From a virus, in the IMG/VR virus record IMGVR_UViG_3300020595_003017, positions 62,001 through 126,000 of that record: a DNA stretch of 64,000 nucleotides. One strand, 5' to 3'. The notes beneath the pieces were generated by a model. That model saw only the letters and a program-made list of their open reading frames with translations, did not search any database and was not told the origin of the DNA. The position numbers were made by a program, and so were the translations under genes. Shown piece by piece: positions 26 through 54,873 of this stretch; the first letter of the stretch is position 1, and every line of letters starts with the position of its first letter.

Positions 26-958
26 ATGAACTCTCTTAACGCAAACGACCTCCGTAAGTTAATTACTGAGGTCGTTTCTGTTTATTGGACAGAAAAACAT
101 CAGTGGCTACTGGAAAGCCCCAAAGTGTTAAAGGAAGGGGTTTTTGATCCCGGCATCCTCAAGGCAATCTTTACGGCTGGTGGACCAGGCAGCGGAAAAT
201 CTTTCGTGGCTGATATGTTGATGGGCGCTCGCTCCCTTGAAAAACCCTACCAGAAGTATTTTGAGGAGCACACCTCATACCTTCCAGCCGGCATTAAGTA
301 TGTCAACTCTGATAACCTCTTTGAAAAGGGGCTTCTGAAAATGGGCATCAATCCTAAAGACCTAGCCGACATAGAATCATTGCCCAGCGACGAGTTGTGG
401 GATATCATTCAGGGGGAAGACCCAGAATCTATTCGCAACATAGCCAAAGGACAGCTTGCAGCCCAGCGTGCCTTTTACGAGAGTGGTCGTCTTGGAGTTC
501 TTGTTGATGGAACTGGGCGAGAGTATGAGAAAATTGCGAGACAAAAAGAAAAGATGGAGAAGTTAGGATACGATACTGCTATGGTATTTGTAAATACTTC
601 CGAAGAAGTCGCCCAACAGCGCAATGCCGGCAGAGACCGAGTTCTCCCAGAGAAAACTATTACAGACCTTTGGAATCAGGTGCAGAACAACCTGAAAGCC
701 TACGCTCAACTTTTTGGTAACGACTTCACTATCGTCATGAACGATGCGCCAGGCGCTCCTCCTGAATCAGCAGTCAAGGCTATGAACGACTTCGTAGCCG
801 CCCCGGTTGAAAACAAGTTTGGACAGTCATGGATTGAAGGAGAACTTGAGCGTCGAGGTGTCCAGACATTAGAGCCTGGCGGAGCCGGTGGCTTTCGTGG
901 CGACCGAGAGTCTGCCGAACGCATCCAACAAATGAGGGACAGAAAGGCGGAACAGTGA
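26..958 (+). CDS. Zeta-toxin-like P-loop kinase with capsid-targeting-like N-terminus
   Basis: A 310-residue protein with a Walker A motif GGPGSGKS at residues 52-59, a later acidic segment (KYVNSDNLF) and a VDGTGRE segment. This layout fits zeta-toxin/polynucleotide-kinase-like P-loop kinases, which phosphorylate small molecules or nucleic acid ends; the substrate here is unknown. The first 20 residues contain LRKLITEV, which matches the (L/I)-x-E peptides found on several other proteins in this window and may direct it into the head. The C-terminal 50 residues are charged and Gly-rich. The ATG follows the Shine-Dalgarno sequence TCTGGAGA. The next gene overlaps its end by four bases (GTGA), so the two are probably co-translated. 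Confidence 0.8.
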   Translation: MNSLNANDLRKLITEVVSVYWTEKHQWLLESPKVLKEGVFDPGILKAIFTAGGPGSGKSFVADMLMGARSLEKPYQKYFEEHTSYLPAGIKYVNSDNLFEKGLLKMGINPKDLADIESLPSDELWDIIQGEDPESIRNIAKGQLAAQRAFYESGRLGVLVDGTGREYEKIARQKEKMEKLGYDTAMVFVNTSEEVAQQRNAGRDRVLPEKTITDLWNQVQNNLKAYAQLFGNDFTIVMNDAPGAPPESAVKAMNDFVAAPVENKFGQSWIEGELERRGVQTLEPGGAGGFRGDRESAERIQQMRDRKAEQ

Positions 959-1332
959 CGTTTGACGTCCTTAAGCTTTTAGAACAAGAAGGCTACATCA
1001 AAGACGGCGAGGACAACTTAGTTCATGCTGAGAAGGCCTTTTTCGCTGCACGAGTTATGCAGTGGATAAGAAATAAAGTAAACACAGAACCTGATTTCAA
1101 TCTTCAAGCCTATTTAACAATGTTAATGTATTATAAGACAGACGTGGCTGACTTAAAGTTTACAGAGGATGGTAGTAAACTAGTTTACCGGATGAGAAAT
1201 AATGATAAAGAGGTGCAGGATCTTGTTAACTCACTTATTAAATCTAGTAGCAAATCTCATGAAGAACCTACCTCAGAAGAAGGAAACACTCCCAGTGACA
1301 CCAAAAGCTCTGATAGAGATTCTGAATCCTAA
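955..1332 (+). CDS. Conserved hypothetical protein, acidic tail
   Basis: 125 residues, starting at a GTG that shares GTGA with the stop of the kinase gene. The first 90 residues look globular and helical (LLEQEGYIKDGEDNLVHAEK and onward). The last 30 are Ser/Asp/Glu-rich and probably disordered. No family is recognised. Its 3' end overlaps the next gene by 74 bases in another frame, which is long even for this genome; the disordered tail may tolerate that double use. Confidence 0.7.
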   Translation: MTFDVLKLLEQEGYIKDGEDNLVHAEKAFFAARVMQWIRNKVNTEPDFNLQAYLTMLMYYKTDVADLKFTEDGSKLVYRMRNNDKEVQDLVNSLIKSSSKSHEEPTSEEGNTPSDTKSSDRDSES

Positions 1333-1933
1333 GAATATAAAATCATATTTTGCAGCAAAAGATTATAAATTCTTTGACACTCCTGACAAGTTACTAAACC
1401 TAAATCTGATAGGTGTGCGTCGAGACAATCAAGGCACAAACACTTTTGATGATTTCTTGCTGGTAATGTATCGTGAAGAAGAATTAATGATTAGCACCCG
1501 ATATCAAGTAACAACTGACCCAGGGAAGCACTGGCTTGAAAAACCGATCAATCCCAAGGGAACAGCGGTGCTCGTGCCCGGACAATATCGAGGGACTTGG
1601 CAACTAGGAAAGCACCAGGGCAAGTATGAAGCACTAGTTCAGCGCAAGCCTGTTAAAGTTTATCGAGACAATAACAAAGACGAGATCATAGATTATAATA
1701 ATATAAACACGATAGTTGATGAGGGGTACTTTGGTATCAACATCCATCGCAGTAATCCCTACGATCAGTCTTATGTAATTAATAAATGGAGCGCAGGCTG
1801 CCAGGTCTTCAAAAAGATTGAAGATTATAATAATTTTATGGAACTCTGCAAAGAATCAGCAAAGATTTATGGCAACGGATTTACCTACACGCTCATTACT
1901 GAGAAAGATTTAAGAAATCACCTAGATAGCTGA
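1259..1933 (+). CDS. YkuD/L,D-transpeptidase-like phage protein
   Basis: 224 residues from the ATG at 1259 (starting MKNLPQKKETL); an upstream in-frame TTG/ATG-like extension to 1202 would only deepen the overlap. The C-terminal half carries GINIHRSNP followed about 20 residues later by WSAGCQVF. The His and Ser-x-Gly-Cys spacing recalls the H...S-x-G-C active site of YkuD-type L,D-transpeptidases, which form or hydrolyse peptidoglycan cross-links. Phage proteins with an IHR...KWSAGCQVF core are known to me only as hypothetical or lysozyme-associated. No signal peptide is visible. A role in wall penetration or lysis is inferred from the motif only. Confidence 0.65.
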   Translation: MKNLPQKKETLPVTPKALIEILNPKNIKSYFAAKDYKFFDTPDKLLNLNLIGVRRDNQGTNTFDDFLLVMYREEELMISTRYQVTTDPGKHWLEKPINPKGTAVLVPGQYRGTWQLGKHQGKYEALVQRKPVKVYRDNNKDEIIDYNNINTIVDEGYFGINIHRSNPYDQSYVINKWSAGCQVFKKIEDYNNFMELCKESAKIYGNGFTYTLITEKDLRNHLDS

Positions 1934-1975
1934 CTATTTATAGATAGTTCTATTTTCTGAGGAGAAAAAATAATA

Positions 1976-2440
1976 ATGTCCCAATATAAAATTTCCAAAG
2001 CAAGGTTATCGCAAATTATCAAAGAAGAATACGAAAAGATTCTGCTTGAAGATGAGCAAAGAACTGATGAGGGCTACATGGATGCTCTTGATCGGGAGAG
2101 AGACGACGACGCCCGTGAGCGCCGCCGGCAATTGCAACGCATTAAAGACGAAGAAGAAAGAAAGCGCAGAAGCGGTGGCTATCGACGACCCGGCGCAGGC
2201 TCTGGCATGGGTGGCATCGGCGGCGGAGGATCTGGCAAAAAGAGATTCCCTGGCTTTAATCGTAAAGACGAAAAGATGGACGCAGTTGGCAAAGAAGATG
2301 CCGACGTTGACAACGATGGCGACACTGATAGCAGCGACGAGTATCTGAAGAAGCGCCGCAAAGCCATTGGCAAGGCCATGAAAAAGGAATCTCTGGATTC
2401 TATCCGAGATTTAATTCAGCAAGAACTTAAGAATTTCTAG
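1976..2440 (+). CDS. Disordered protein with EF-hand-like loop and capsid-targeting-like N-terminus
   Basis: 154 residues. The N-terminus reads KARLSQIIKEEYEKILLE, the clearest example of the amphipathic (I/L)-x-E peptide shared by several proteins here. The middle is Arg/Glu-rich coil followed by a Gly-rich linker. Residues around 105-120 hold DADVDNDGDTDSSDEYL, a D-x-D-x-D-G-D calcium-binding loop of the EF-hand/dockerin type. The C-terminus (ESLDSIRDLIQQELKNF) repeats an amphipathic helix. The Shine-Dalgarno is TGAGGAGAA. I infer a virion-internal or structural protein; its exact role is unknown. Confidence 0.7.
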   Translation: MSQYKISKARLSQIIKEEYEKILLEDEQRTDEGYMDALDRERDDDARERRRQLQRIKDEEERKRRSGGYRRPGAGSGMGGIGGGGSGKKRFPGFNRKDEKMDAVGKEDADVDNDGDTDSSDEYLKKRRKAIGKAMKKESLDSIRDLIQQELKNF

Positions 2441-2445
2441 TAGCC

Positions 2446-4635
2446 ATGGATCAGGATCTTCGACCCGATCAGATCGAGATTTTAGTTGGCAGTCCTGCTG
2501 TCAATGATGAATTCTCACGAAAAATAAAAGAGCTTGATCGAAGGCTCCAGGCTAATGGTATGTATTATAAAGACTGGGAGACACTGAACGATCGGCAGCA
2601 TGACGTTTTCTCCAGCGATATGTTTTTAGAAGGTGACAACGCAAACAGCGTTAAGCACTATGTTATGGCTGCGGTTAATTCATGTTGGTGTCCGGATGTT
2701 ATTGAAGACCTACACCATCACTCCCCAGTTTTGATAAGGGAAATAGAAAAACAACAAGAGATGCTCCCCGACATGACAGTAAAGATCGGGGAAGGTCTTC
2801 AGTATATTAACAACTTGATAGACAATACGCTCGTTGAGTTTTTAGGTGTTCCCGATAAAGAGACTGCCCAATTTTTTGGCTCTGAAGAATACAACGAATT
2901 ACTAGACAAACTAGATAGCCTAGGTAATCCTAAGAGCCCGGAAGAGCTTTACGATAATGTCAGCAAAGTAGCCCTCAAAGAACTAGAAAAATACTTCGGA
3001 AAGGGCTGGATTGATAATACTGCCGAAGAATGGAAGATAGACGGAAAAAAAATTAAAAACCCCACCCTCGAAAAAGAGGGAAATCTTGGGAGGATGTGGC
3101 GATTGACCAACGCTGGTAATCGTGCCAATAGAAACGAGGCACTAGAGAAGATTCGAGAGGCGTTGGATGATGGTGCTTATGGTGCTGATATACAAGTAGT
3201 TAAGGACGAAGAGGGCGACATATACAAGAAAGGTTTTTTAGTCAGACTATCCATGGTGTTTAAATTCCCAACTGCTGATGGCAAAGTGGTTGATGTCCCA
3301 TGGAAAATGGACCTGAGCGAGGGCATGGGTGCCGGCGGCACAGCCGAGGGACGACAACTATCTGAATTTCAACAAGCCCTTCAAGAAGCCATAGAAAAAA
3401 ACAATGGACAACCTGTTACGATTGAATTCCCTAACGGTCTTGGGACAGTTAGCGGAGTTGCAAATATCATAAGCGGACCTAAGCGAAAAACAAAGGGACG
3501 AGTTGGAGACCCAAAAACAGATTTTGTTTTACAAGACAAATCCGGAAATAGTTTATATTTCTTATCCGCCAAAGACGGAAATAAACCCAGTAACTTTAAC
3601 CAGTGGGGCGGGTTCTCTAACATCCCAGGCGAAGCCATGAAAGAGATTAATGACTTTGCTAAAGCGGCGGCTAATTTTATATTATACGACAGGAGAGATG
3701 CAAAGACGGATGGCGACCCTCTGCGTTATTACGAATGGCAAAAACAAGGGGGCGAGAACGTTCTAAAGAGAATGAATCCCGGTAGTGTGCCTTACGGAAT
3801 GGTGATCACAAAACCAATAAAAAATCGAATGCTAAAACTTAAGGCAGTTTTTGGAGAGGACTTTGGTACGGTCAATCCACAAACCAAAAAAGCCAACCAT
3901 GGACTGGACTATGTTAATGCCACTTTTCAGATTCCAGAAGGGGCTGCTTTAACTTTAAAAGAGAAGACAGAGGGGGACCCAAGTGTTCTAGTCCCGGATG
4001 GTTTTGTTCATGTGTTCGGTCCAGCACAATTTAGCGGCTATCCGTCAATGACTGATATGTCTGATGAGGAAATAGACGAAGAAATTGATAACGTGATGGG
4101 AAGAGGCTATCATCCTATTCTACTACTCAGAAGAGCAGAGGGAGGCCGAGGAGAAGGCGTCTCAGGAAAAATGTTTGGTCCTAGGTCCGGTACTAAGAAA
4201 TTCAGCAAAAGAAAAGAAGCCGAGGCGGCAGCACAATCCGCCGTTGATGCGGCAGCCGGCATCCAGATTTCTATGCCGAAGGATATTTATGGTCCGAAAG
4301 TCCCATATTCAATGCAAAGCGTTAGGTTTGGGATATTCCCAGCAGAAAACAGAGCCATTACTCACGTTATGAATGATAACTTTCAGGTGGAAGCTGTCTG
4401 GGACAAAGAAGGTGCCCTCGCTTCAGCCCAATGCGGCTCTTGGTATTGCAACAAGGCAGCCCTTGACGCTGTTGGTGGGGCAGTAGAAATAAAAGAAGAC
4501 GGATCAAGAACGCCTTTAGACTTAACAGGTCCAGTTGATGATGATACTATTGGGGGAGCAGATGGGAATCCAAAACCACCATCGGCTCAGAAGTTTAACA
4601 AGTTTAAATTGCCGGCAGCAAATATAAAAAGATGA
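2446..4635 (+). CDS. Large protein of unknown function, possible PD-(D/E)XK-like core
   Basis: 729 residues, the largest unidentified protein of the window. In the middle, TDFVLQDKSGNSLYFLSAKDG has an acidic residue, a hydrophobic strand and S-x-K-D that could be a PD-(D/E)XK nuclease-like core. A later stretch holds SGYPSMTDMSDEEIDEEID and then GRGYHPILLLRRAEGGRGEG. The C-terminus is Pro/Lys-rich. There is no membrane segment or signal peptide. The ATG at 2446 follows the previous stop by five bases. The neighbouring methylase might point to a nucleic-acid role, but this is weak inference. Confidence 0.65.
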   Translation: MDQDLRPDQIEILVGSPAVNDEFSRKIKELDRRLQANGMYYKDWETLNDRQHDVFSSDMFLEGDNANSVKHYVMAAVNSCWCPDVIEDLHHHSPVLIREIEKQQEMLPDMTVKIGEGLQYINNLIDNTLVEFLGVPDKETAQFFGSEEYNELLDKLDSLGNPKSPEELYDNVSKVALKELEKYFGKGWIDNTAEEWKIDGKKIKNPTLEKEGNLGRMWRLTNAGNRANRNEALEKIREALDDGAYGADIQVVKDEEGDIYKKGFLVRLSMVFKFPTADGKVVDVPWKMDLSEGMGAGGTAEGRQLSEFQQALQEAIEKNNGQPVTIEFPNGLGTVSGVANIISGPKRKTKGRVGDPKTDFVLQDKSGNSLYFLSAKDGNKPSNFNQWGGFSNIPGEAMKEINDFAKAAANFILYDRRDAKTDGDPLRYYEWQKQGGENVLKRMNPGSVPYGMVITKPIKNRMLKLKAVFGEDFGTVNPQTKKANHGLDYVNATFQIPEGAALTLKEKTEGDPSVLVPDGFVHVFGPAQFSGYPSMTDMSDEEIDEEIDNVMGRGYHPILLLRRAEGGRGEGVSGKMFGPRSGTKKFSKRKEAEAAAQSAVDAAAGIQISMPKDIYGPKVPYSMQSVRFGIFPAENRAITHVMNDNFQVEAVWDKEGALASAQCGSWYCNKAALDAVGGAVEIKEDGSRTPLDLTGPVDDDTIGGADGNPKPPSAQKFNKFKLPAANIKR

Positions 4636-5640: not shown

Positions 5641-7384
<1,744 letters not shown>

Positions 7385-30118: not shown

Positions 30119-30250
30119 ATGATTACTAAAACTGGTTTTTGGAAGACAATTAAAAAAGGTCTCATAGAAGCTGAGAGATCTAAGAAGTTGACAAAACAAA
30201 TTATGAAAATTATTAAGGATGTCCCGCAAAATGAAAATAGAGGAACTTAG
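30119..30250 (+). CDS. Very small basic protein with (L/I)-x-E-like motif
   Basis: 43 residues, MITKTGFWKTIKKGLIEAE and onward, amphipathic and basic. CGGAGG precedes the ATG. It resembles a stand-alone version of the capsid-targeting-like peptides on following genes. It overlaps the next gene by 20 bases. Confidence 0.55.
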   Translation: MITKTGFWKTIKKGLIEAERSKKLTKQIMKIIKDVPQNENRGT

Positions 30251-30434
30251 AAATTTAGTTCGGGACGTAATCCAGGAAACACTTGCTGATGGCGTATTTC
30301 AATCTCGTGCTAGAAAATCATATTCTAAAATGATAAAGCTAGCAGGATCTGGTGGGAATAAAAATACACCTCCGTTTGATGAAAAAGCAAAGTCAAAAAA
30401 CATGAAATCCGCACCTCCAACATCTGGAGAATAA
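30231..30434 (+). CDS. Small basic protein with capsid-targeting-like N-terminus
   Basis: 67 residues beginning MKIEELRNLVRDVIQETL, an amphipathic helix ending in I-Q-E. The remainder is basic and disordered (SRARKSYSKMIKLAGSGG). The ATG at 30231 has AAGGAT upstream; an in-frame ATG at 30219 is the alternative. A head-internal DNA-associated protein is plausible. Confidence 0.6.
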   Translation: MKIEELRNLVRDVIQETLADGVFQSRARKSYSKMIKLAGSGGNKNTPPFDEKAKSKNMKSAPPTSGE

Positions 30435-30435: not shown

Positions 30436-31257
30436 ATGCACCAAGCTAGGCAATGGTATAATTTTATAAACGAAGAAGTCAAGAAGATTTATGTCCATGG
30501 CTATATTAAGCCAGAGAAATCATTCCATACCTTATCTGAGTGGAGAGTATTTGTAGATAAGATTCTACAGTATCAAAAAGATGGGTACTATGTTAGTCAT
30601 GGTCACGGCGAATTGGTTGGTCCGGACGAACTAACATCTTTAATAAAAGATTTTTATGGTTTCCAATTAACTGTTGATGTGGACAGGTATGATCTTTTAA
30701 CTTCCAAGAATGTTATGGACCACATCGAGGATTTTGTAAATCACAGATACTGGTCACTAGAAAATGAGTTTAGTCAATACTTCACTGACATAGATAATTT
30801 AAAGTTTGCTTACTTTTATTCTCGTGGCGATTTAGAGCCTTACGTTTTGGTAGACGATGCGTTTACTGAGCAGGTCTATGGCTCAACAAATAATCCAAAA
30901 GTATTATACCATTATACTCACCCAGAAGGTATAGAGAGAATAAAGAGAGCTATTGAGGGCGGAGACCCTTTTGATATTTCCGCCTACACTGTGGCCAAGC
31001 GTGACTTCTTCCGAGCTAAGTCTAATATGATAATGGAGTTCGAAGGGAATGTAAGGGCAGGATTCCGAAGTGATGTCAAATCATACTCAGTTAGTAATGG
31101 CAGGAAATGTGTTAATCTTCACCGAATGGGTTATCCTGGAGACAAAGATAATTTATGTACAGACCTAGTTAATGATTGTAACGGTGAACTAAAGACGAGT
31201 CTTTGGAACGAGTTTATAGTTACTCCTATTCGTATTCTGGATGTGTCTAAAAAATGA
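30436..31257 (+). CDS. ADP-ribosyltransferase-like protein, candidate injected effector
   Basis: 273 residues. The start ARQWYNFINEEVKKIY contains F-I-N-E, close to the T4 capsid-targeting consensus (F-I-x-E). From residue about 155, VLYHYTHPEGIERI matches the H-Y-T strand that opens HYD1/DarT-like ADP-ribosyltransferases. A closing segment LWNEFIVTPIRIL supplies a late Glu where such folds keep their catalytic Glu. These enzymes move ADP-ribose from NAD+ to proteins or nucleic acids. T4 packages an ADP-ribosyltransferase (Alt) in its head. The neighbouring gene encodes a second HYT protein. Domain assignment is by motif only. Confidence 0.65.
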   Translation: MHQARQWYNFINEEVKKIYVHGYIKPEKSFHTLSEWRVFVDKILQYQKDGYYVSHGHGELVGPDELTSLIKDFYGFQLTVDVDRYDLLTSKNVMDHIEDFVNHRYWSLENEFSQYFTDIDNLKFAYFYSRGDLEPYVLVDDAFTEQVYGSTNNPKVLYHYTHPEGIERIKRAIEGGDPFDISAYTVAKRDFFRAKSNMIMEFEGNVRAGFRSDVKSYSVSNGRKCVNLHRMGYPGDKDNLCTDLVNDCNGELKTSLWNEFIVTPIRILDVSKK

Positions 31258-32363
31258 AATTACTAATGGAACAATGGCGCAAGTTCCTAAAAGAAGGCAT
31301 CAGCGATGTCGTCTATCACTACACTAACGGACTTGAAAGGGGTGCCAAGATTCTAGAGCAGAATAGGTTTATGGCTTCTGGTGGATTTACCAAAGACGTT
31401 GAGTCTGAATTAGGTAAAGGGAAACTTTATTATTTTTCTACCGCAAGAACCCCAGCCAATGCTTACACGGGAAATTATCCACAGGGTGTTATCTTCAAAT
31501 TAGATGGTCGTGCTTTGGGACAGAAATATAAAGGAGTTCCGCTAGACTATTGGGCAACAAAGAAACGCTCTTCCAAGAAAGCAGCCAACCCTGACCCTGG
31601 CGAGACAGAAGGGTTTGAGGCAGAAGACAGGATACTTTTAGATGAACCCTACATTGAGGATGCTGACAGGTACATAGACGAAATCCATTTTGCTATTCCT
31701 TTGTATCGGTTTGAAAAGGGAATGTTTGATGATGAACCAAAAAGAAAAGCCGGCAGCGCCATAGAAGCCTACCAAATGAAAGGACTTAGAGATGGCGTCG
31801 CCATAGCGGAACAAAGAAACATCCCTTATTATATTCATATTGATAAACAAACTTTCCCCTTTGTTGAGGTTGGTAAAAAGAAAGCACTTACTAGCTTGGC
31901 TGCGTTTATGGAAGAAGTAGAAAAGTCTGGTGTCACAGTCAACGAGCCTCGTGACCAAGCATCGGTATATAAGAGTAGAAGCGGAGCAGAGTTTGGCGAA
32001 GATGAAGTGTTTCTGTATGTTCAGGCTGCCCAAGATATCCTAGCCGGTAAAGAGCGATTTGAAGGAGCCAGCGTGAAGGATAAAGTTGGATATAGAGACG
32101 AAGCTGAACGTAAGAGAGAAGGTACCGTAATGTTCCGAAATCTTACGGGCTCCCCTAATATGTATGGTCGCTTTTACAGGGAAATTGATAACAGTCTCCA
32201 TAATGTAAGTTCTAATCCCAAAGCTCGTAAGACTTTGGAGATGCTCGCCTCACTTATGCGGAGCACAAAACAAAAGACCCTAAAAGATTTTGAAAACTAT
32301 TTAAATCAGGTCTATAAACAAAATCATCCGGACGGCGACCCGACAGGTTATCGAAATACATAA
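31254..32363 (+). CDS. ADP-ribosyltransferase-like protein 2, candidate injected effector
   Basis: 369 residues. MKLLMEQWRKFLKEGI has W-x-x-F-L-K-E|G, again like a cleavable capsid-targeting peptide. VVYHYTNGLERGAKILEQ follows directly, then KLYYFSTARTP and FEAEDRILLDEP, giving an H-Y...S-T...E order typical of ADP-ribosyltransferases (H-Y-E type). The C-terminal 150 residues are helical and basic. The start overlaps the previous gene by four bases (ATGA), suggesting equal production of the two. The likely action is NAD-dependent modification of a host factor on infection; the target is unknown. Confidence 0.7.
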   Translation: MKLLMEQWRKFLKEGISDVVYHYTNGLERGAKILEQNRFMASGGFTKDVESELGKGKLYYFSTARTPANAYTGNYPQGVIFKLDGRALGQKYKGVPLDYWATKKRSSKKAANPDPGETEGFEAEDRILLDEPYIEDADRYIDEIHFAIPLYRFEKGMFDDEPKRKAGSAIEAYQMKGLRDGVAIAEQRNIPYYIHIDKQTFPFVEVGKKKALTSLAAFMEEVEKSGVTVNEPRDQASVYKSRSGAEFGEDEVFLYVQAAQDILAGKERFEGASVKDKVGYRDEAERKREGTVMFRNLTGSPNMYGRFYREIDNSLHNVSSNPKARKTLEMLASLMRSTKQKTLKDFENYLNQVYKQNHPDGDPTGYRNT

Positions 32364-33514
32364 TGAAAAAAAAGAAGCAAGATATTATCCTAGAAGACCT
32401 TGGCGATTATAATCCCATAGAGATACTTCGAACTGCCGGAAAGTATTATGTAGACCTGGCAAAAAGTCCTAACCCAAGAGAGCAATTCAGAAAAGATTTA
32501 AAAGACGCTGGGGTTGATGATTATCTACAAGGAGCGTCCGCCATACCTTTTATCGGTATGCCTTTTGGGCTAGCTTCAATCGGTTTAAACCTTGGGGCCG
32601 GGAATACACAACAAGCACTCATACAGGCAATAATAACAGTCAGCGCAACGCTTGGAGTCTCCGCAGCCGGCAAAGGGTTTCAAGCCGCAGCATCAAATCC
32701 TAGAGTTGCTCAGGGAGTTGCGAGAATAATACAAAGTGTGGCAGATAGGATGGGAAGACTGCCAGCCATAGGTCCTAGAATTGTCACTGCTGTTGAAGCG
32801 ATGAGCGGACAGCTTAAAAATCTTATGGGTGAGTTAGCAGAGGTTGTGACAGAAAAAGAAATTGAAAAAGCAGAGAATGAATCAAATAGGATCAAAGGGG
32901 CTTTAGATAAGCTCGCTGCCAGCCAGCCTGCTAAGAAGATTAAGAAGTCTACTGCGGCAAACAGAAAAGATGTTACGGAAATGAGAGAACTACTTAGAAA
33001 AAGGCGGATGCAGGAGAACTCCCAAGTGAAAATTACAAAAGACTACTTGCGAACAATTATCAAAGAGGAAATTGAAAATAAACTCCTCGTAGAGGATTTA
33101 GATCCAATGGCTGTCGCCCAACGTATTTCTTTAGCTATTGCCGGCGCTAAACTTGGTGCTGACCTTCGGAAACCTTTAGCGCAGACTGGTGTTGACATTG
33201 CTGCCATGCATAGCGCAGCGTTTAAGGGAGATGACCCCGTAAAAGAAAGGCTAAAAAAATTAGTAGCTATTAGCTCAGATGAAGAAGTACAAAAAGCTCA
33301 CGATGCCTTATATAAAATGGCAACTGGCGAAGATGAGGCAACTAAAAAATATGCTAAACAGATTAGAAGCAACATGCCAGTCTTTTCAGAGGATGGCTCT
33401 CTTGCCAGTCGGCTGTCAGTGTCAGGAGGAAAGGGAGGAAGAGGGATGAGCCGAGTTAGATCCCCCCAAGACTTAATTAAATGGTACGCATCCACAATGG
33501 GAGATAAAGAATAA
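32363..33514 (+). CDS. Helical protein with hydrophobic centre and embedded capsid-targeting-like peptide
   Basis: 383 residues. The start KKQDIILEDL resembles the shared peptide. Residues 55-115 are Gly/Ala-rich and hydrophobic (IPFIGMPFGLASIGLNLGAG), like pore-forming or virion-membrane segments. Residues 222-240 (KITKDYLRTIIKEEIENK) duplicate the N-terminus of the next gene almost exactly at DNA level. A GTG with AGGAGA upstream sits precisely there, so the gene can be read as two joined modules. Two head proteins from one gene are possible. Confidence 0.65.
   Translation: MKKKKQDIILEDLGDYNPIEILRTAGKYYVDLAKSPNPREQFRKDLKDAGVDDYLQGASAIPFIGMPFGLASIGLNLGAGNTQQALIQAIITVSATLGVSAAGKGFQAAASNPRVAQGVARIIQSVADRMGRLPAIGPRIVTAVEAMSGQLKNLMGELAEVVTEKEIEKAENESNRIKGALDKLAASQPAKKIKKSTAANRKDVTEMRELLRKRRMQENSQVKITKDYLRTIIKEEIENKLLVEDLDPMAVAQRISLAIAGAKLGADLRKPLAQTGVDIAAMHSAAFKGDDPVKERLKKLVAISSDEEVQKAHDALYKMATGEDEATKKYAKQIRSNMPVFSEDGSLASRLSVSGGKGGRGMSRVRSPQDLIKWYASTMGDKE
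33026..33514 (+). other. Possible internal in-frame start producing a 162-residue C-terminal product
   Basis: GTG at 33026 lies eight bases after AGGAGA. Translation from it would give a protein starting KITKDYLRTIIKEE, just like the gene at 33516 and others that begin with this peptide. Nested in-frame products are known for phage scaffold genes. The alternative is a gene fusion in which only the full-length protein is made. Confidence 0.5.
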
Positions 33515-33515: not shown

Positions 33516-33809
33516 ATGAAAATTACAAAATCCTTACTGAGAACAATTATCAAAGAAGAAATTGAAGAGGCTTTTCGCCTAGAAAGCGATTTCAGCGTCG
33601 GCGATGTTGTAAAGTGGTCCACCCTAGAAAAAGTAATGAAAACAACTGCCAGCGGCAGACAAAAAGTTGACTACGATAGGGTACCTAGATCAGGTGAGAT
33701 TGTAGAGCTTTATCGCAGTCCCAGAGGGGGCACACCAGGGTCTGCCAAAATACTTGACACTGATGGCGATTCGCACGAAGTAGAAATTTCAGAACTGACA
33801 TTCGCTTAA
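33516..33809 (+). CDS. Small protein with capsid-targeting-like N-terminus and SH3-like body
   Basis: 97 residues. MKITKSLLRTIIKEEIEEAF is followed by FSVGDVVKWSTL and SGEIVELYRSPRGG, strands like the 'GDLV' mini-barrels. It thus joins two recurring modules of this genome. It begins one base after the previous stop. Confidence 0.7.
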   Translation: MKITKSLLRTIIKEEIEEAFRLESDFSVGDVVKWSTLEKVMKTTASGRQKVDYDRVPRSGEIVELYRSPRGGTPGSAKILDTDGDSHEVEISELTFA

Positions 33810-47510: not shown

Positions 47511-48743
47511 GTCCTCAAAAATTTGTCTAATTTGGATAAAAACCGTTTCAGAGTTTACGGCGGGAGTGAATAGCCTTCTTTGTTCTCCATGAACACACGC
47601 TAGAAATGTGTTATGATGCGGTTGTAAAGCAAAAACAAAAAGTTCAAAAAGTTCGTCTTGAGCGATTGAAGAAATTTCTGCGCAGTTCTTCCCCAAAACG
47701 GTTTGGGCTACTTCATCCGTCATCGTTATAATTACCTTTTGTGCCCCGGATCTCCAAGAAAAAGGATAAAGGGTCATCGACCAAAACATTGTATCGATGG
47801 TTGGTTCCACTCCAGAACTTTGTATCATTCTACCGGCTTCTAGGATGTCCAAAAACTCATCAGCCGGAACAAAGTCAGAGACCATTCTTGCGTACTGATA
47901 TGGAGGTCTTCTTTCTCCATTGCCTGCCGTACCTACAACAACCAGTCCAAAGCGAAATGTGCTCGTTATCGGGTCGTCTAAAAGCGGAGCAATACCTTGT
48001 ATCATTGATTCTATCTCTTCATTGAACGAACCAGAAATATCAAGAACAAAAACTAAATCTACACCACGGGTATCAAACCCTTCGTCTACTTCTCCATCAC
48101 AATCGTTATCTAGATTATCACAACGCTCTTGGGCTGGTAATATTTGACCATCACAAGGTCCGTCAAAGCCTCCATCTGTACAGTATCGAACACCAGCACG
48201 ACACTCTCCTACAGCCATAGTTCCATCTGGTCCTTCATAACAAACAATAGCTGTAGAATTGGCTATACCTTCATCTATTGATCCATTACAATTATTGTCG
48301 AGTCCATCACAGATCTCATCAGAGGGCCCAGTATGACCATCACAATAGACACCTCCATTGTCGCATTTCATCACACCTGGAGTGCATATGCCAACGCCAT
48401 AATCAGCGCCCTCAATAAATCCACATAGTTGATGTTCTTCTGGATATGTCTCATCTATAGCCACATCGCAATCATTATCTATACCATCACAAATTTCTTC
48501 TGCTGGTCCTCGTGCTCCTACACATTCTGACCAGCCGCTTGTCGTACAAGTTCTTAAGCCGTAAGAACATTGACCTGCCCTTTTTGCAACATCAATTGGA
48601 TCAGCAGCCGGAAAATCTTGACCCAACTCATCACAAACAAGTTTCTCGCCTGGTACACACTCAAGTCTTATGAGTTTTTCGTCGTCTATACATGCCGAAC
48701 AAGAAGTAAGTATCAGTGGCAATAATAAGACTAGCCGTTTCAT
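47487..48743 (-). CDS. MopE-like/VWA surface lipoprotein
   Basis: 418 residues. MKRLVLLLPLILTSC is a lipoprotein signal with lipobox L-T-S-C (C15). Three repeats of the C-D-x-x-D-N-D/N-C-D/N-x-x-x-D-E type (CDGIDNDCDVAIDE, CDGLDNNCNGSIDE, CDNLDNDCDGEVDE) match the MopE-like putative metal-binding motif common in myxobacteria and related deltaproteobacteria. A VWA domain follows with MIDAS LDISGSF and TMTDEV. It is on the opposite strand to nearly all other genes. It probably sits on the cell surface and binds metal or partner proteins; a lysogenic-conversion-type 'moron' is one explanation. Confidence 0.88.
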   Translation of the reverse strand: MKRLVLLLPLILTSCSACIDDEKLIRLECVPGEKLVCDELGQDFPAADPIDVAKRAGQCSYGLRTCTTSGWSECVGARGPAEEICDGIDNDCDVAIDETYPEEHQLCGFIEGADYGVGICTPGVMKCDNGGVYCDGHTGPSDEICDGLDNNCNGSIDEGIANSTAIVCYEGPDGTMAVGECRAGVRYCTDGGFDGPCDGQILPAQERCDNLDNDCDGEVDEGFDTRGVDLVFVLDISGSFNEEIESMIQGIAPLLDDPITSTFRFGLVVVGTAGNGERRPPYQYARMVSDFVPADEFLDILEAGRMIQSSGVEPTIDTMFWSMTLYPFSWRSGAQKVIITMTDEVAQTVLGKNCAEISSIAQDELFELFVFALQPHHNTFLACVHGEQRRLFTPAVNSETVFIQIRQIFEDLCIGDDR

Positions 48744-49210
48744 TCCATTGTGGCCTCGACACAGGCATCATACGAATTGTAAAGAACCATTGTCATAGCC
48801 GTGCTATTGAAAACACGAAATCTAATTTGTTTAAGCGGAAGTTGATCTTTTCTATAAGATGCCGTCATTATTATAGGTGGTGATTCATCGGATTGTGTTG
48901 GGAGCTTAAAAGCAAACAGCAAAGAATTGCCGGGTCCATTCTGTAAGATACCAGCAATATAACCATCTTTAATAACTTCAGGAATGCCAATTTGGGCTGC
49001 GGCGTTGTCGCCGGGTTCAGTTGTTATACGATTACTGATGTGGACAACCCATTTACAATTACCGTGTTGACCCGGTGTATAGAATGTAGATTGTTTCGCA
49101 AATACGGTCTTGTAAAGACTGTTAGCTTTTATATGATAATGAAGCCCTATAGCAGACACTAAAGCTAGTATACTTAAAAGTGTAACTCTTTTAGTGAGAA
49201 AACTAAACAT
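48740..49210 (-). CDS. Membrane-anchored extracytoplasmic protein
   Basis: 156 residues. The N-terminal helix (VTLLSILALVSAIGLHYHI) is an anchor or signal. The rest is beta-rich (GNCKWVVHISNRITTEPGDN, IRFRVFNSTAMTMVLYN). ATGA-type overlap with the lipoprotein gene downstream on the same strand suggests co-expression. Function unknown. Confidence 0.65.
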   Translation of the reverse strand: MFSFLTKRVTLLSILALVSAIGLHYHIKANSLYKTVFAKQSTFYTPGQHGNCKWVVHISNRITTEPGDNAAAQIGIPEVIKDGYIAGILQNGPGNSLLFAFKLPTQSDESPPIIMTASYRKDQLPLKQIRFRVFNSTAMTMVLYNSYDACVEATME

Positions 49211-49221
49211 AAAACCACCCC

Positions 49222-49503
49222 TTATTGGAGAGGATCTAACTCTAGTACCTCTCCGTTGGGAGATAAAGTAATGAAGGGCATTTTCTTTATCTCTTTATTA
49301 AGTATCTGGTTGTTGCTAGTTTTTGTTTTCTTTTCTATCCAGACAAGAATTTGAGTTTTTTCCTTAACTTGCCCTACATATGACCATTTTCCCTGTATTT
49401 TTTTCCAAACTTCAGGAAAATCAATAGGTTGACCCGAAAATAGTAAAATACCTGACAACATAACGCTGTTTAACATAAGATAATATTCCTTTAATGAATT
49501 CAT
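49222..49503 (-). CDS. Secreted small protein
   Basis: 93 residues. The hydrophobic N-terminus (YYLMLNSVMLSGILLFSGQ) resembles a signal peptide; the mature part is basic (ILVWIEKKTKTSN) and could be a small strand-rich domain. First gene of the three-gene minus-strand unit. Confidence 0.6.
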   Translation of the reverse strand: MNSLKEYYLMLNSVMLSGILLFSGQPIDFPEVWKKIQGKWSYVGQVKEKTQILVWIEKKTKTSNNQILNKEIKKMPFITLSPNGEVLELDPLQ

Positions 49504-49555
49504 AACAAAGATTTACTGTGGATAATTAGTTCCCTTTCAATCTACTTACTTTATT

Positions 49556-50446
49556 ATGATTAAAAAAACACCTTTTTACGTTAAGTTTCTTATATTTTCG
49601 TTATTTTGCCTATCAAGTTGTGTCAGTGGTTGCACCACGATAAAAATTTCAAACGCAAGTCAGAAAGAAATTTTACCAAGAAATTCTTTTGTACAAATTC
49701 AACAATCTGTTGAGTTAGAGGGTTGTGGAATCGACCAAGAAACAAAAGAGAAAAAATGTCAAAAAGCAATGATGAGATATGTTTCGTCGGGTGCTTATGT
49801 TTTTCACAGCGAAGTAACTCAAGACATTTCTTATGTTTTAACTGCTGGTCACTCTTGTGAAAATAAACTACCCAAAGTCCAGAACATCAGAGGTTTTGAA
49901 ATACGGAATAAAGGGGCATCGTTTAAGGTTGTAGATCTTAACGGGTTTCAACATGATGCTAGGGTTGTAAATATTAATAATCGTTTTGATTTATGTCTAT
50001 TGCAGGTGTCAGATGTTTTAATGAACCCACCTGTTTTATCCCTAGCTGAAAATGAACCAAAAAGAGGAGAAACCGTAACTAATATGGCAGCACCTCATGG
50101 ACTTTTTTGGCCAGGAACAGTTTTAATATTCAAGGGTCAATTTTCTGGATATCATAATAAGGGATACTCTATCTATACAATCCCTACCAAGCCAGGCTCA
50201 AGTGGGTCGCCAGTACTTAATAAGAATAATGAATTAGTTGGCGTTATTTTTGCAGGCTACCCAATGATTGAAAACGTAGGGCTGTCTGCTCCTCTCGTAG
50301 CTATCAAGGTTTTTCTGAAAAAATCAATCGTAATAGGGGAAATGAGACTTTTCGAAAAAGATAACAAACCTAAAGTGAATACACAGATCGATAGGCTTTG
50401 GATTCAAAAAATGAAAACAAAACTTAATGAGGTTTTTGGTAACTAG
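49556..50446 (+). CDS. Trypsin-like serine protease lipoprotein
   Basis: 296 residues. A signal peptide with lipobox L-S-S-C (C22) points to an outer-membrane or periplasmic lipoprotein. The chymotrypsin-fold triad is clear: His99 in LTAGHS, Asp145 in NRFDLCLL and Ser216 in PGSSGSPV. No PDZ domain follows. It is divergent from the minus-strand unit with only 52 bases between them, so a shared control region is likely. Together the four secreted genes (47.5-50.4 kb) look like a cell-surface module rather than virion genes. Confidence 0.88.
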   Translation: MIKKTPFYVKFLIFSLFCLSSCVSGCTTIKISNASQKEILPRNSFVQIQQSVELEGCGIDQETKEKKCQKAMMRYVSSGAYVFHSEVTQDISYVLTAGHSCENKLPKVQNIRGFEIRNKGASFKVVDLNGFQHDARVVNINNRFDLCLLQVSDVLMNPPVLSLAENEPKRGETVTNMAAPHGLFWPGTVLIFKGQFSGYHNKGYSIYTIPTKPGSSGSPVLNKNNELVGVIFAGYPMIENVGLSAPLVAIKVFLKKSIVIGEMRLFEKDNKPKVNTQIDRLWIQKMKTKLNEVFGN

Positions 50447-50472: not shown

Positions 50473-50961
50473 ATGGCTGGAAAAAATAGACCGTCTAAAC
50501 CTGGAAGTTCTAACGCTGTAACAGTTGGACCTTTATCGCAAGGCAGTGCAAGATTTCCTTTATCAGAATTACCAACTGGTAAGGGATTAGCTCTAACAAC
50601 TTCAGATCAAAACGTTCATAAATTATCACCAGGTGTTCTAGAGGAAGTATACCTTTGGTGTGCAAATTACTCAGCCAGTGAGGTTATTCTAAGCCTTCAT
50701 TTTAATCAAGCTGGTTCAATTTCTGCCGGACCTTCACCTCAGGTAAAAATACCACCCAGGGAAGGCTTGGTTTTAGTGTGGCCAGGGATACCTCATACTT
50801 CTACTCTAGGTGAGGAAGATACCACAGTTCAAAATTTTGTAAGAGCTAAGGCTGCGTCCAATAGTGCCTTAATACTTTATGGATTTGTTGTTCGACATTA
50901 CCCAAGAGATAGGGACAATCTCGGCGCAGCCGGATATAGCTACGGTCCTGTGACAGAATAA
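50473..50961 (+). CDS. Probable virion beta-sandwich protein
   Basis: 162 residues, Ser/Pro/Gly-rich N-terminal arm followed by a beta-sandwich pattern (VYLWCANYSASEVILSLHF, GLVLVWPGI, NSALILYGFVVRHY). Composition and position before other structural-looking genes suggest a neck, tail or head protein. One base separates it from the next gene. Confidence 0.65.
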   Translation: MAGKNRPSKPGSSNAVTVGPLSQGSARFPLSELPTGKGLALTTSDQNVHKLSPGVLEEVYLWCANYSASEVILSLHFNQAGSISAGPSPQVKIPPREGLVLVWPGIPHTSTLGEEDTTVQNFVRAKAASNSALILYGFVVRHYPRDRDNLGAAGYSYGPVTE

Positions 50962-50962
50962 A

Positions 50963-51778
50963 ATGCCAATAATAGCTAGAAGAACACTTGGTCAAATAAA
51001 AACTCAAATGGGTGGAGATACAGATCCACCAAAAGCACCGTCTTTTATTAGTGTAACTCAAACTAATAATGTTACTGATCTGGGTAATGATGAAGACGAT
51101 ACCAGCAATTATTTTCTCTTCAAAACAACCATTGCTACTGGCGCAACAAGTACAACATTTAGTACAGATTCTGAATCTGACGATATCACTTTTACTCCCA
51201 CCAATGGTCGTTTTACCACGACTACTGCGGGTGATTATCGTATAGGCGTTACGCTCTCTCTCCTGGTGAGCGCAACTTCCACATTCACTGTCAAGGTATT
51301 TGTTGACAGTAGTGCTGTATATTCACAAACAGTCACAATTAACTCCGCAGCAGATCCACTACCCGTTACTATAAATTTAATTGAATCCTTGACTGCTGAT
51401 CAATATGTAAGGGTTCAAATTACTCGTAGCTCTGACGAAAATGTATATCCTCGCCTGGGTTCCAGCTTTACCTTGAACAGGCTTGGTCCCTCTAGTGGCG
51501 GTGGTAGCAGCGGTGGCGAAGTTACAATCAGGAATAATGTTGATGGCTATATTCTTAAGGCCACTGGTGAAAATAATGTTATTGAGGGTATGCCTCAATT
51601 TATCTCTTCCTCAACAGGTATAACTTCCAGCGTAGATTTTTATATTTCAGGTTCTAACCCCCCTTCCGCTGGTCCGAACCTATTTATACAGGGAAGCGAC
51701 GCAGATGGAAACGTTTCAAAAATGAAAATAATTGTTGAAAACGGATTCTTGAAGGTAATAGATGATAATCTTGAATAA
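50963..51778 (+). CDS. Probable virion fibre or decoration protein
   Basis: 271 residues. Thr/Ser-rich beta domains (TIATGATSTTFSTDSESDDI, DYRIGVTLSLLVSATSTFTV) resemble C1q/TNF-like or collar-type phage modules. A Gly/Ser linker (GPSSGGGSSGG) leads to a terminal domain with SSSTGITSSVDFYISGSNPP. Similar in style to the fibre-like protein at 45246. Confidence 0.68.
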   Translation: MPIIARRTLGQIKTQMGGDTDPPKAPSFISVTQTNNVTDLGNDEDDTSNYFLFKTTIATGATSTTFSTDSESDDITFTPTNGRFTTTTAGDYRIGVTLSLLVSATSTFTVKVFVDSSAVYSQTVTINSAADPLPVTINLIESLTADQYVRVQITRSSDENVYPRLGSSFTLNRLGPSSGGGSSGGEVTIRNNVDGYILKATGENNVIEGMPQFISSSTGITSSVDFYISGSNPPSAGPNLFIQGSDADGNVSKMKIIVENGFLKVIDDNLE

Positions 51779-51794
51779 TGTGAGGGTTAAGTAA

Positions 51795-52034
51795 ATGTTA
51801 AGAAAAATAACAAAACAGTTCCTATTGAACGAAGCTATAAAAATAGATCCTGCTGCTTCAGTGCAGGCACTGTATGATATCATAAGCAATGTCAGAGTAA
51901 CAAATAAACGAGATACTGGCAGAATTTCCTTGGCAAAAGAGCATCTTCGTGGTATAAAGAGACAGTTAAGATCTCTTAACGAACGTATTGAATCTTTAGA
52001 AGAAGAGTTAAACTTACTCAAAGAGGAAAAATAA
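51795..52034 (+). CDS. Small coiled-coil protein with capsid-targeting-like N-terminus
   Basis: 79 residues. MLRKITKQFLLNEAIKI has F-L-L-N-E|A, which fits the (L/I)-x-E rule. The C-terminal half is a strong coiled coil (LRSLNERIESLEEELNLLKE). It may be a scaffold or internal head protein. It is directly followed by the ligase/NMNAT-like gene without a gap. Confidence 0.7.
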   Translation: MLRKITKQFLLNEAIKIDPAASVQALYDIISNVRVTNKRDTGRISLAKEHLRGIKRQLRSLNERIESLEEELNLLKEEK

Positions 52035-54059
52035 ATGGGTGGTGTTGCAGGTCATATGGACCATCTTTACGATAATCGTAATTTAACTTTTGAAAAAATG
52101 AAAGAGATAATGTTAGCTGGTGCTGATGCAGAGTTATCTACCGAAGAAAAAGTTGATGGTCAAAATCTTTTCCTGTCTTATTCTATTCCCGAAGGTAAAG
52201 CTAAAGGCGCAAGAAACAAAGGGCATTATAGGACAGGTGGTCTTGATGCTAGCGGATTGGCACAAAAATTTGCTGGTAGAGGTGGACTAGAAAAAGCTTT
52301 CACTGGTGGATTTGATGCTTTTGAAAGAGCGGCAGAGTCTTTATCAGATGAAGAGAAAGAGAAAATATTCGGACCTGATGCTAATATTTGGTACAATGCA
52401 GAAATCATGGACCCCGGAACTGATGATCCTAATGACCCCGGTTCAGTAAATGTTATAAAGTATGACAACAAAACATTAAAAATACACAATGTAGGACATT
52501 TTGTATATAACCCAGAATCTGGGGAAACAGAAAAAATACCATCTGGTGCTCTAGAGACACTAGACAATGCTCTTGAAAGAATGCAGAAATCTTTGCGTGG
52601 CCACAATTTTTCATTGGCTAGAGAAGCTTTAATCCAACTTAAGAAACTTGAAGATCAAAAGCCAGTGCAAGAGGCATTTGCAAGGATCAATACAGCACTT
52701 AGTGCCGAGGATCTATCCGACTCGGATACCGTTGGAGACTATATTTTCTCTAGGTTAAAAAATGGTGTTGATACTGACCTAAATGAGAAACTTAAAGAAG
52801 AGCTTGTCAAATACCTGATGGGCTTGCCGGATAATATAGGTAAGCGTGCATTAAAGAAAGGTCTTAGCAAAGAGGATCAACAAGATATTGATAATATCGT
52901 GAGATCTAAGAGCATGATTCTCCGAGAGGCTATATTGCCTATTGAGATAGCAGTTCATGATTATACAGTAGAAATTCTAAAAGGACTTAAGAGTGTTTTT
53001 ATTGCCGACACAGACAGAGAAATTACTCGACTAAGAAATGAATTAGCCAAAGCTGTTAAGGAAATAACAGAAAGAGGCCCAGAGGATCCAGCTACTATGG
53101 AGGTGATGCAATTTCACTTAAATAAAATAAAAGATTTCTCTCAAATAACCACACCTGTTGAAGCTGTTGTTTTTGACTATGACGGACACACTTATAAATT
53201 TGCTGGTAATTTTGCTCCCCTTAATCAAATTCTAGGAATGTTTAGATACCCTAAGGGTGCTAAAAAAGTAACTACTGAAAATATATCCTTTAACACTGAA
53301 GTTATTACAGAAGATGAAGGTAAAAAAGTTGCACTGTTGCCTGGTGGCTTTAAACCGCCCCATGCTGGTCATTATAGGCTAGCCAAAGAATTATCCTCCC
53401 TTCCCGATATTGATGAAGTTCTTGTCATCATTGGTAAAAATCCTCGTTTTTCTGAGATAGAACCAAAGATCACAGTTACAGCAGAACAATCTAAAAATCT
53501 CTGGGATCTTTATACCAAAGATGATGAAAACATTAAAGTAAGAATTCAACAAGGAAGCACTCCTGTGGCTGATGTCTATGATTTAATAGCAGATAAAAAT
53601 TCATTCTCTAGCGGAGACACAGTTGTTCTAGGAAAAAGCGATAAAGATGAAGGCGACAAGAGATATTCTCGTGCTCAGTCTTGGGCTGAAAGACATAATC
53701 CTGGTGTCTCCGTAGAGGAAATGGTGATGCCAGTCTACGGAGGAGAAGGAATGGGCGGCACTTCCTTAAGAAATATGATAGCATCGGGAGATAAAAGAAA
53801 GTTGTTGTCCAAACTCCCTGAACATCTAAATGATGCTGAGAAAGATCAAGTTTACGACCTGTTGTTTTATACTAACGAAAAATTAGATTCTTTAATTGAT
53901 ACTACAATTGATGAAATGTCAACCATGGCTGCCGGGGCTGTTGAAATCGGTGTTGGACCTTTTGGTGCCGGTGGTAAGACAAATTCTTACAATCCGTATT
54001 CTAAGAAAAAGAACAAAAAACCAAAAGTCAAAAGAGCAAAACGTCAAAGGCGGAGATAA
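52035..54059 (+). CDS. Fusion of ligase-like (KxDG) and NMNAT-like nucleotidyltransferase domains
   Basis: 674 residues. N-terminal part: EEKVDGQNLFLSY holds K39-V-D-G, the AMP-accepting motif of DNA/RNA ligases; GARNKG, WYNAEIMDP and LKIHNVGHF follow in ligase order. Similar open frames (GHMDHLYDNRNLTF start) are known to me from T4-like marine phages. C-terminal part: LLPGGFKPPHAGHYRLAKEL (HxGH near residue 445) and GTSLRNMI near 575 are the two signatures of adenylyl/cytidylyltransferases such as NMNAT. A helical linker joins the halves. The tail is Lys/Arg-rich. One idea is combined nucleic-acid repair and NAD recycling. Confidence 0.8.
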   Translation: MGGVAGHMDHLYDNRNLTFEKMKEIMLAGADAELSTEEKVDGQNLFLSYSIPEGKAKGARNKGHYRTGGLDASGLAQKFAGRGGLEKAFTGGFDAFERAAESLSDEEKEKIFGPDANIWYNAEIMDPGTDDPNDPGSVNVIKYDNKTLKIHNVGHFVYNPESGETEKIPSGALETLDNALERMQKSLRGHNFSLAREALIQLKKLEDQKPVQEAFARINTALSAEDLSDSDTVGDYIFSRLKNGVDTDLNEKLKEELVKYLMGLPDNIGKRALKKGLSKEDQQDIDNIVRSKSMILREAILPIEIAVHDYTVEILKGLKSVFIADTDREITRLRNELAKAVKEITERGPEDPATMEVMQFHLNKIKDFSQITTPVEAVVFDYDGHTYKFAGNFAPLNQILGMFRYPKGAKKVTTENISFNTEVITEDEGKKVALLPGGFKPPHAGHYRLAKELSSLPDIDEVLVIIGKNPRFSEIEPKITVTAEQSKNLWDLYTKDDENIKVRIQQGSTPVADVYDLIADKNSFSSGDTVVLGKSDKDEGDKRYSRAQSWAERHNPGVSVEEMVMPVYGGEGMGGTSLRNMIASGDKRKLLSKLPEHLNDAEKDQVYDLLFYTNEKLDSLIDTTIDEMSTMAAGAVEIGVGPFGAGGKTNSYNPYSKKKNKKPKVKRAKRQRRR

Positions 54060-54069
54060 TTATAATACT

Positions 54070-54873
54070 ATGACTACTATTAATCGCAATGAGCTTATTG
54101 CAGAACAACTTATAAGAGAACATATTCACAAAAGAATAAAAAACAAACTCAATGAGCAGCAGGTTTTTGAAAATAAGCTTCGAGGATTTGTTCGAAAACT
54201 AATAGAAGCTGAAACAGGTACCGAGGAAGCCAGCAGTAATACTGGCATTAACGTTCTTGCCGACTTGTTAGAAAAAATTATCCCAACAATTGAGGGCGAC
54301 TATAAAATGTTGACAACCTCTGAAGAACAGAGGGAATCTTTTCGTAACCATATGGTTCATGCCATTAAGAATAGTCTAAGGCCAATTGAGGCTGCAACAG
54401 ATGCTGAAAAAGCTGCTGACCTACCAGAAAACTTTGTAGTTAATGCAAGTAATTTAGCAGAAGAGCTTAAAATTGATCTTGATCCAGATAACAGTGATGA
54501 AAGTGTGTCTGGAGAATTTATTGACATCGATTCAGGAGAATCTAAAGATTCCGATGACTTTGTAGAGTTACAAGATCAAAACGAAACCGGTCGTAACTTT
54601 GCTGCTACAACTTTTACGAAAGTTGAAAAACAGATTGTTGACGCATATGACATGTTGGCAGATGAAGAAGATCAGCAAATATTTTATGACTATCTTCTTA
54701 CCAACATTTTATTATATTTCGATAAGTTCGAAGATGAGCTTCAGGCAGAACTTCCAGATATAACAACACCAGAATATGAAAAAGAAAAAGATGAAGAAGA
54801 AGTAGATAATTCAAAAACTTCAGATGATGCAGAAGAACAACCATCAGATGATTTGGATGATTTGTTGTCTTAA
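54070..54873 (+). CDS. Acidic protein with capsid-targeting-like N-terminus
   Basis: 267 residues. The first 50 residues are amphipathic and contain several (L/I)-x-E sites (NELIAEQLIRE, FVRKLIEAE). The rest is highly acidic with a disordered Glu/Asp tail (DDAEEQPSDDLDDLL). Acidic helical head proteins of this type often are scaffolds or internal core proteins. ATG at 54070. Confidence 0.7.
   Translation: MTTINRNELIAEQLIREHIHKRIKNKLNEQQVFENKLRGFVRKLIEAETGTEEASSNTGINVLADLLEKIIPTIEGDYKMLTTSEEQRESFRNHMVHAIKNSLRPIEAATDAEKAADLPENFVVNASNLAEELKIDLDPDNSDESVSGEFIDIDSGESKDSDDFVELQDQNETGRNFAATTFTKVEKQIVDAYDMLADEEDQQIFYDYLLTNILLYFDKFEDELQAELPDITTPEYEKEKDEEEVDNSKTSDDAEEQPSDDLDDLLS

Follow-up and report, generated by a model that had tools for sequence, protein, structure and literature searches.

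The stretch analysed here (the window, 64,000 nucleotides) comprises bases 62001-126000 of a virus record of 190,528 bases (190.5 kb), IMGVR_UViG_3300020595_003017, which, to judge from its genes, is an uncultured T4-like phage. Several genes in the window, and others elsewhere in the record, open with one of two short N-terminal peptides (tags) that are consistent with capsid-targeting propeptides of the kind known from T4. These tags precede proteins that are otherwise unrelated to one another, and they also appear in many environmental relatives of the phage.

The tags fall into two classes. Class A N-termini follow the consensus MKITKxxL[KR]xIIKEE...LxE, and class B N-termini follow MKxLLxEW[RK]xFLxE, with cleavage predicted directly behind the final E of each. 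Degenerate DNA patterns run on IMG/VR matched at least 119 stretches for class A and at least 118 for class B, and among the matches listed, 216 proteins were of class A and 150 of class B. After removal of duplicates and a length limit of 45 residues, 192 and 113 proteins, respectively, remained for building profiles; the class B training set includes proteins identical or nearly identical to the record's own (L078, L016). L numbers denote loci fetched for comparison, most of them from IMG/VR, with L409-L413, L415 and L416 taken from a set of bacterial and archaeal genomes. Two kinds of profile were used: a strict one with a 6-bit threshold, and a smoothed one for which shuffled N-termini give a 99.9% null level of 12.8 (class A) or 10.1 (class B) and a 99% level of 8.3 or 5.9.

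The tagged or possibly tagged genes of the window are given below with their smoothed-profile scores (A or B) and the residue that follows the predicted cut.

26..958, + strand: zeta-toxin-like kinase of 310 residues with a weak class A tag, ANDLRKLITEVV; PF06414 at E 7.1e-9, over the cut-off.
1976..2440, + strand: 154-residue protein with a strong class A tag, KISKARLSQIIKEEYEKILLE, then D; A 30.2; the L123 homologue begins MKITKTQLQQMIREEMENL.
30231..30434, + strand: 67-residue protein with a possible class A tag, MKIEELRNLVRDVIQETL; A 8.6, chance level; opens a row of tagged genes.
30436..31257, + strand: 273-residue protein with a divergent class B tag, QWYNFINEE; own score B 9.7; no Pfam family over the cut-off.
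31254..32363, + strand: 369-residue protein with a strong class B tag, MKLLMEQWRKFLKE, then G; B 23.4; no Pfam family over the cut-off.
32363..33514, + strand: open reading frame (ORF) of 383 residues with a second, tagged start inside; the internal class A copy is at residue 222.
33026..33514, + strand: the internal class A tag, VKITKDYLRTIIKEEIENKLLVE, then D, at an in-frame GTG start; A 23.5; putative product of 162 residues.
33516..33809, + strand: 97-residue protein with a strong class A tag, MKITKSLLRTIIKEEIEEAFRLE, then S; A 24.7; the L011 homologue has the same tag.

The initial annotation had assigned one shared tag to ten places in the window. On the smoothed profiles, four of these score strongly (1976, 31254, the internal copy in 32363, and 33516), and two more are supported by orthologues although their own scores are weak. 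The tag of gene 26 scores A 8.7, which is within chance level, but its orthologues reach 22.5 (L040), 12.3 (L114) and 12.5 (L094) on class A; the orthologues of 30436 begin 'MKKLMDRWRVFINEE' in L089 and L011 (B 21.4) or score B 23.5 (L071). The remaining four places lie within chance level, namely 30231, the start of 32363 (A 8.4), 51795 (A 1.4, B 0.5) and 54070 (A 5.4, B -5.0). Gene 30231 looks class A-like by eye, is separated by 1 base from the next tagged gene and lacks an informative orthologue. The GTG at 33026 is preceded by AGGAG at 33012-33016 with a spacing of 9 bases, and thus the ORF at 32363 likely yields a second, separately started tagged product of 162 residues.

Both tags are far more frequent in the record than chance would produce. 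Among 228 genes called with a simple home-made gene caller, the strict class A profile matches the N-terminus of 11 at 6 bits, compared to none in each of 100 shuffles, and the strict class B profile matches 7, compared to a shuffle mean of 0.01. Matches elsewhere in proteins number two for class A, both of them second copies inside ORFs (record 187880 and 94363), and one for class B. Not one of 4971 ORFs in 80 chance-picked viral loci reaches 18 bits with either class. The smoothed profile brings in two further genes, at record 177676 and 16814 (the latter encoding the head-module protein described below), and orthologues bring in window genes 26 and 30436 as well as record genes 49127 and 184919. 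We estimate that about 23-25 genes of the record are tagged. Those beyond the window lie within record 102-1159, 16814, 48432-49627, 177676-185506 and 187337-189644, and the genes tend to stand in rows, with the next listed gene at -4 to +21 bases for 18 of 27 tagged or possibly tagged genes.

Treating the tags as one, as the initial annotation had done, merges two distinct peptides. On the class A profile, no class B-tagged gene of the record exceeds 7.4, which is under the 99% null level, and we rejected a single-tag view. In the reverse comparison, a few class A N-termini score up to 10.6, in a shifted register. The mean hydrophobic moment is 0.69 for class B (0.33 when shuffled) and 0.38 for class A (0.26 when shuffled).

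The record also carries the protease and capsid genes of a T4-type head. It encodes a prohead protease of family S77 (PF03420, E 1.2e-31; PHROG 207 'head maturation protease', E 5.9e-54) and a gp23-type capsid protein (PF07068, E 7.6e-71). Of 39 large tagged IMG/VR records (at least 100 kb), 30 encode both S77 and gp23; the remaining 9 encode neither protein and are best read as fragments missing the head module. In all 23 gp23 sequences compared, the motif [LV]L[RKQD]E followed by A, S, T or Q is conserved in the N-terminal stretch, at the site where T4 gp23 is cut. In two genomes (G019 and G033; L395 and L401), two gp23-type genes with nearly identical N-termini are adjacent, perhaps as a gp23/gp24-like pair.

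A cleavage signature of the T4 type is found behind the class A tag. A second L/I-x-E, which the search pattern leaves unfixed, ends at residues 18-26 in 108 of the 192 class A proteins, compared with a mean of 26.8 and a maximum of 42 in 500 shuffles and with 16 of 192 at residues 30-38. The residue that follows is A, G or S in 42% of cases (n=111), compared with 25% after other glutamates (n=444; Fisher p 3.8e-4). As a sequence signature only, class A has a T4-type cleavage site with a small residue behind it.

A class A-like tag is also present on a conserved protein encoded within the head module. Head modules were retrieved for 20 of the 30 large tagged records with S77. In 19 of them, and in the present record, a protein of 123-153 residues with a class A-like N-terminus lies between the protease and a gp22-like scaffold protein, and in the twentieth (L400) this place is taken by an unlike protein of 132 residues that has a class A tag. 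Sixteen of these proteins were found by an N-terminal expression, one (L388) by eye and two (L394 and L396) by their bodies after start correction. The proteins align beyond the tag, most of their invariant residues fall in it, and the three found without the N-terminal expression (one by eye, two by body) are also tagged. All 17 labelled copies score at least 13.1 on the class A profile, where the 99.9% null level is 12.8 (background of 506 proteins), although these scores are partly circular and not fully independent because the labels were made in part from the N-terminal tag. The head-module protein matches no Pfam or PHROG family over the cut-off or with an E value below 0.01.

Tags within one contig resemble each other, even when the proteins behind them do not. 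At nine variable tag positions, identity is 0.72 in 126 within-contig pairs with unrelated bodies, compared with a permuted mean of 0.50 and a maximum of 0.56 in 1000 permutations. Residues 27-41 of the same pairs exhibit no such likeness (0.065 versus 0.064). This is the pattern that a shared, genome-specific docking partner would impose, and gene conversion could add to it.

The bodies behind the tags form 230 clusters, of which 166 occur with class A only, 60 with class B only and 4 with both. For example, one P-loop kinase carries class A in L221 and class B in L104; one of the four mixed clusters rests on a domain common to longer proteins. The occurrence of bodies with either tag suggests that both tags lead to one destination. 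Bodies with DUF3293 are mostly class B and have class A-like N-termini, weaker by score, in four loci, three of which scored 7.1, 8.9 and 14.5 (the last in a shifted register). Tag exchange is not firm for these loci, nor for the zeta kinase of L111 (class B by eye, B -0.5) or the 31254-type body of L066 (A 7.4).

Pfam searches with 100 tagged bodies gave 23 families at E≤0.001, several of them overlapping, including ART-PolyVal (3 members), C39 peptidase, NUDIX, LigT, RNase_T and ParB_N. Record gene 183266 encodes a GNAT-like acetyltransferase. The zeta-like kinase named in the initial annotation is confirmed for gene 26 (PF06414, 35.8 bits against a cut-off of 22.3). The annotation's two ADP-ribosyltransferase (ART) calls, at 30436 and 31254, are unconfirmed: ART is absent among the Pfam matches at E≤1, which are weak and unrelated, and an AlphaFold model of 31254 built from 4 sequences is too poor for a fold search (predicted local distance difference test (pLDDT) score 45). 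A 31254-like body followed by a long C-terminal part makes up an 827-residue protein in three loci (L066:3482-5962, L071:2846-5326 and L111:4241-6721), where it opens with a weak class A-like N-terminus.

A tagged body with an informative fold prediction lies outside the window, at record 48432-49130. This protein matches DUF3293 over the cut-off and the S-adenosylmethionine (SAM) lyase family PF23780 at 20.4 bits, under the cut-off of 28, and SAM lyase family matches at E≤1 are found in 17 of 22 family members (best E 1.4e-16). The AlphaFold model of the identical L078 protein (mean pLDDT 71.7) has a T3 SAM lyase as its top match (Foldseek E 3.3e-4). Residues 25-167 of the model, behind the tag, align with 8bb1_E over 129 residues (Z 13.3, root-mean-square deviation 2.3). 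By fold the body is a predicted SAM lyase, although a common fold is no proof of activity. The gene for this class B-tagged candidate shares 4 bases with a further class B-tagged gene, at record 49127, the pair spanning record 48432-49627. The second protein has an L-[FY]-H-Y motif, and homologues of the two occur together in 17 IMG/VR loci.

Our preferred explanation, to which we assign a probability of roughly 0.7, is that the tags are T4-kind capsid-targeting propeptides in two forms, and that the bodies are loaded into the head, cut free and injected with the DNA. The steps from docking to ejection, including packaging and cleavage, and what each body does in the host are inferred, as follows. 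During head assembly, the amphipathic helix of each tag would join the prohead core. Given the likeness between class A and the start of the head-module protein, the cargo probably docks where that protein docks. S77 would then cut behind the final L/I-x-E, at about residue 21-22 in class A and residue 14 in class B, freeing the body inside the head. Accessory bodies, such as the predicted SAM lyase, the zeta-like kinase, the GNAT protein and others, would accompany the DNA into the host and be the first to act; removal of SAM by an injected body, for example, would blunt restriction. The earlier proposal of a capsid-targeting-like tag on a modular set of proteins thus remains the best reading, given the S77 protease, the L/I-x-E signature, the head-module protein and the within-contig likeness, although four of the places that it listed drop out.

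Three other explanations must be weighed against this one. The tags might bind the prohead core, as proposed above, while the tagged proteins would be accessories of assembly, either retained in the head or lost from it as debris, and not injected effectors. The class A-like tag on the conserved head-module protein would fit this role, as would the absence of a Pfam match for most tagged bodies run, but 230 body clusters are too diverse for common assembly parts, and several bodies are enzyme-like (SAM lyase, zeta kinase, GNAT, NUDIX, C39 peptidase, ART-PolyVal and LigT). We consider this unlikely, though it is the strongest of the three. It is still less probable that the tags direct proteins to another phage structure or a host partner, such as the membrane or a replication site. 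Amphipathic helices do fit many partners, yet a like tag stands on a protein that the head module encodes, and the tag is followed by a T4-type cleavage signature.

Alternatively, recombination at gene 5′ ends could have spread copies of the tags as a module of DNA with no function in the protein. Such copying would account for the within-contig likeness of tags on unrelated bodies and for the near-identical DNA around the start codon of several tags in the record. However, synonymous codons vary at fixed residues (isoleucine 3 is ATC in 107, ATT in 73 and ATA in 36 of 216 proteins), the second L/I-x-E is retained at a set distance, and some of the same bodies carry the unlike second tag class. 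We consider a pure DNA module the least plausible of the explanations, slightly behind a different destination.

Several points weigh against capsid targeting, beyond the partial circularity of the head-module scores. One concerns the link to the protease: co-occurrence of S77 and the tags may reflect common descent, with both marking a T4-like lineage, and this is the main rival for that link. The S77 control is small, comprising 24 chance-picked records of at least 40 kb, of which 1 passes the cut-off and 3 match at E≤0.01, and all 3 belong to the control's 6 records of at least 100 kb. Evidence for function over lineage, short of proof, comes from the cleavage signature and from the likeness of tags within contigs. 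As for that signature, L/I-x-E is missing from residues 18-26 in 84 of the 192 class A proteins, and the cleavage-type residues of class B are in part set by the search pattern. The likeness test counts near-identical tag sets of related contigs (for example, L175 and L225) more than once. An unrelated glycosyltransferase (record 123678) scores 10.4 on class B, above the 99.9% level; the home-made caller sets some gene starts wrongly; and few of the 100 tagged bodies have a Pfam match. The likeness of class B to the protease's own N-terminus is weak, with 1 of 13 labelled proteases above the 99.9% level, and the idea that class B is a copy of that N-terminus is at most suggestive.

Against at least 119 stretches in IMG/VR, the class A pattern has 11 matches among the bacterial and archaeal genomes. 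These 11 come from six assemblies. Two of them, which contain the tag-dense contigs NHDW01000006.1 and PBIO01000025.1, have S77 somewhere in the assembly; S77 was not found in the remaining four, of which one, a Peribacter metagenome-assembled genome (L411 and L416; DJKT), is also tag-dense. The tag-dense contigs of such assemblies (L409, L413 and L415 in NHDW01000006.1, L410 and L412 in PBIO01000025.1, and L411 and L416 in DJKT) are probably phage contigs. Among named phage records, the class A peptide is found only in the uncultured 484-kb LR756508.1, at an E value of 1; this record has six class A ORFs in a 40-kb stretch, and S77 is present. The class B tag peptide and the head-module protein have no match among named phage records.

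With the first 347 residues of the record's gp23 as the query, 199 records of the named collection were recovered, every one below 60% identity, with Rhodothermus phage RM378, Flavobacterium phage immuto, an uncultured phage and Microcystis phage Mel-JY01 in the top rows. The named collection holds no near match to the first 25 kb of the window. The ends of the record (1-2252 and 188918-190528; L005 and L010) match each other in three pieces at 84-94% identity, which looks like the assembly of a circularly permuted genome whose ends come from strain variants. By eye, window 5798-7384 holds a gene for a GroEL-like chaperonin of 528 residues; phage chaperonins are sometimes required for head assembly. 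Record 61422-62009 encodes an acidic 195-residue protein, LVNESVIRRWGKLANMPALTENF, with homologues in L090, L114 and L168, which is possibly another core-type protein.

If capsid targeting is correct, a simple motif would name the injected proteome of a large uncultured phage group. Proteomics could then test which of the many unknown small genes act as infection begins, SAM removal would join the packaged anti-restriction functions, and the peptides would provide new tags for loading proteins into phage heads. A broader version would hold that a large group of uncultured T4-like and jumbo phages uses an exchangeable capsid-address code of two words, one of them matching the head-module protein, to load each virion with tens of fast-evolving effectors, among them SAM lyases made in advance that would disarm SAM-dependent restriction as the DNA enters; injected proteins could then be read directly from sequence in viral dark matter. 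We see the odds of this version as about even. The initial annotation had proposed an undescribed system. The principle has long been known from T4, whereas for class A and the size of the set we recognized no description in searches confined to a collection of open-access papers.

Among known systems, T3 makes its SAM lyase after DNA entry, unlike the DUF3293 SAM lyase candidate, which is predicted to be packaged. The T3 enzyme (PDB 8bb1 and 7ock) has a fold like that of the tagged DUF3293 body at 9-10% identity, and the body described here has a tag in front.

The closest parallel is formed by the capsid-targeting sequences (CTSs) of the T4 internal proteins (IPs) IPI-IPIII and of Alt, which are cut by gp21. 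Both systems combine a short propeptide on unrelated proteins with an S77-type protease and accessory or anti-restriction cargo. Compared by eye with the T4 CTS (MKTYQEFIAE), class B is the more similar form; class A, at about 22 residues, is longer and unlike it and resembles the head-module protein instead. The first 10 residues of IPIII are reported to suffice, with targeting at residues 4 and 7 and processing at residues 8 and 10 (PMC9026906), the internal proteins of T-even phages are diverse defence proteins in which the CTS alone is conserved (PMC3012670), and Ip1, Ip2 and Ip3, which have nothing but the leader in common, each inhibit a different GmrSD (PMC12373910). Three IPs plus Alt are reported for T4 and at least 10 IPs among its relatives, compared with the about 23-25 tagged genes estimated here.

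Polyvalent proteins of phages and conjugative elements are likewise conflict proteins predicted to be injected, and their domains include ART, ParB and peptidase (PMC5512222). They carry several domains per chain, whereas the proteins described here have one tag each as far as seen, with a few ORFs containing a second, internal tag. SPN3US and related giant phages likewise pack many ejection proteins into the head with N-terminal propeptides that the prohead protease cuts (PMC5694885, PMC10052503). Six of eight such propeptides are 111-254 residues long and two are of 20 and 24 residues; by contrast, the tags of the present phage span 14 to about 22 residues and recur in two repeated forms.

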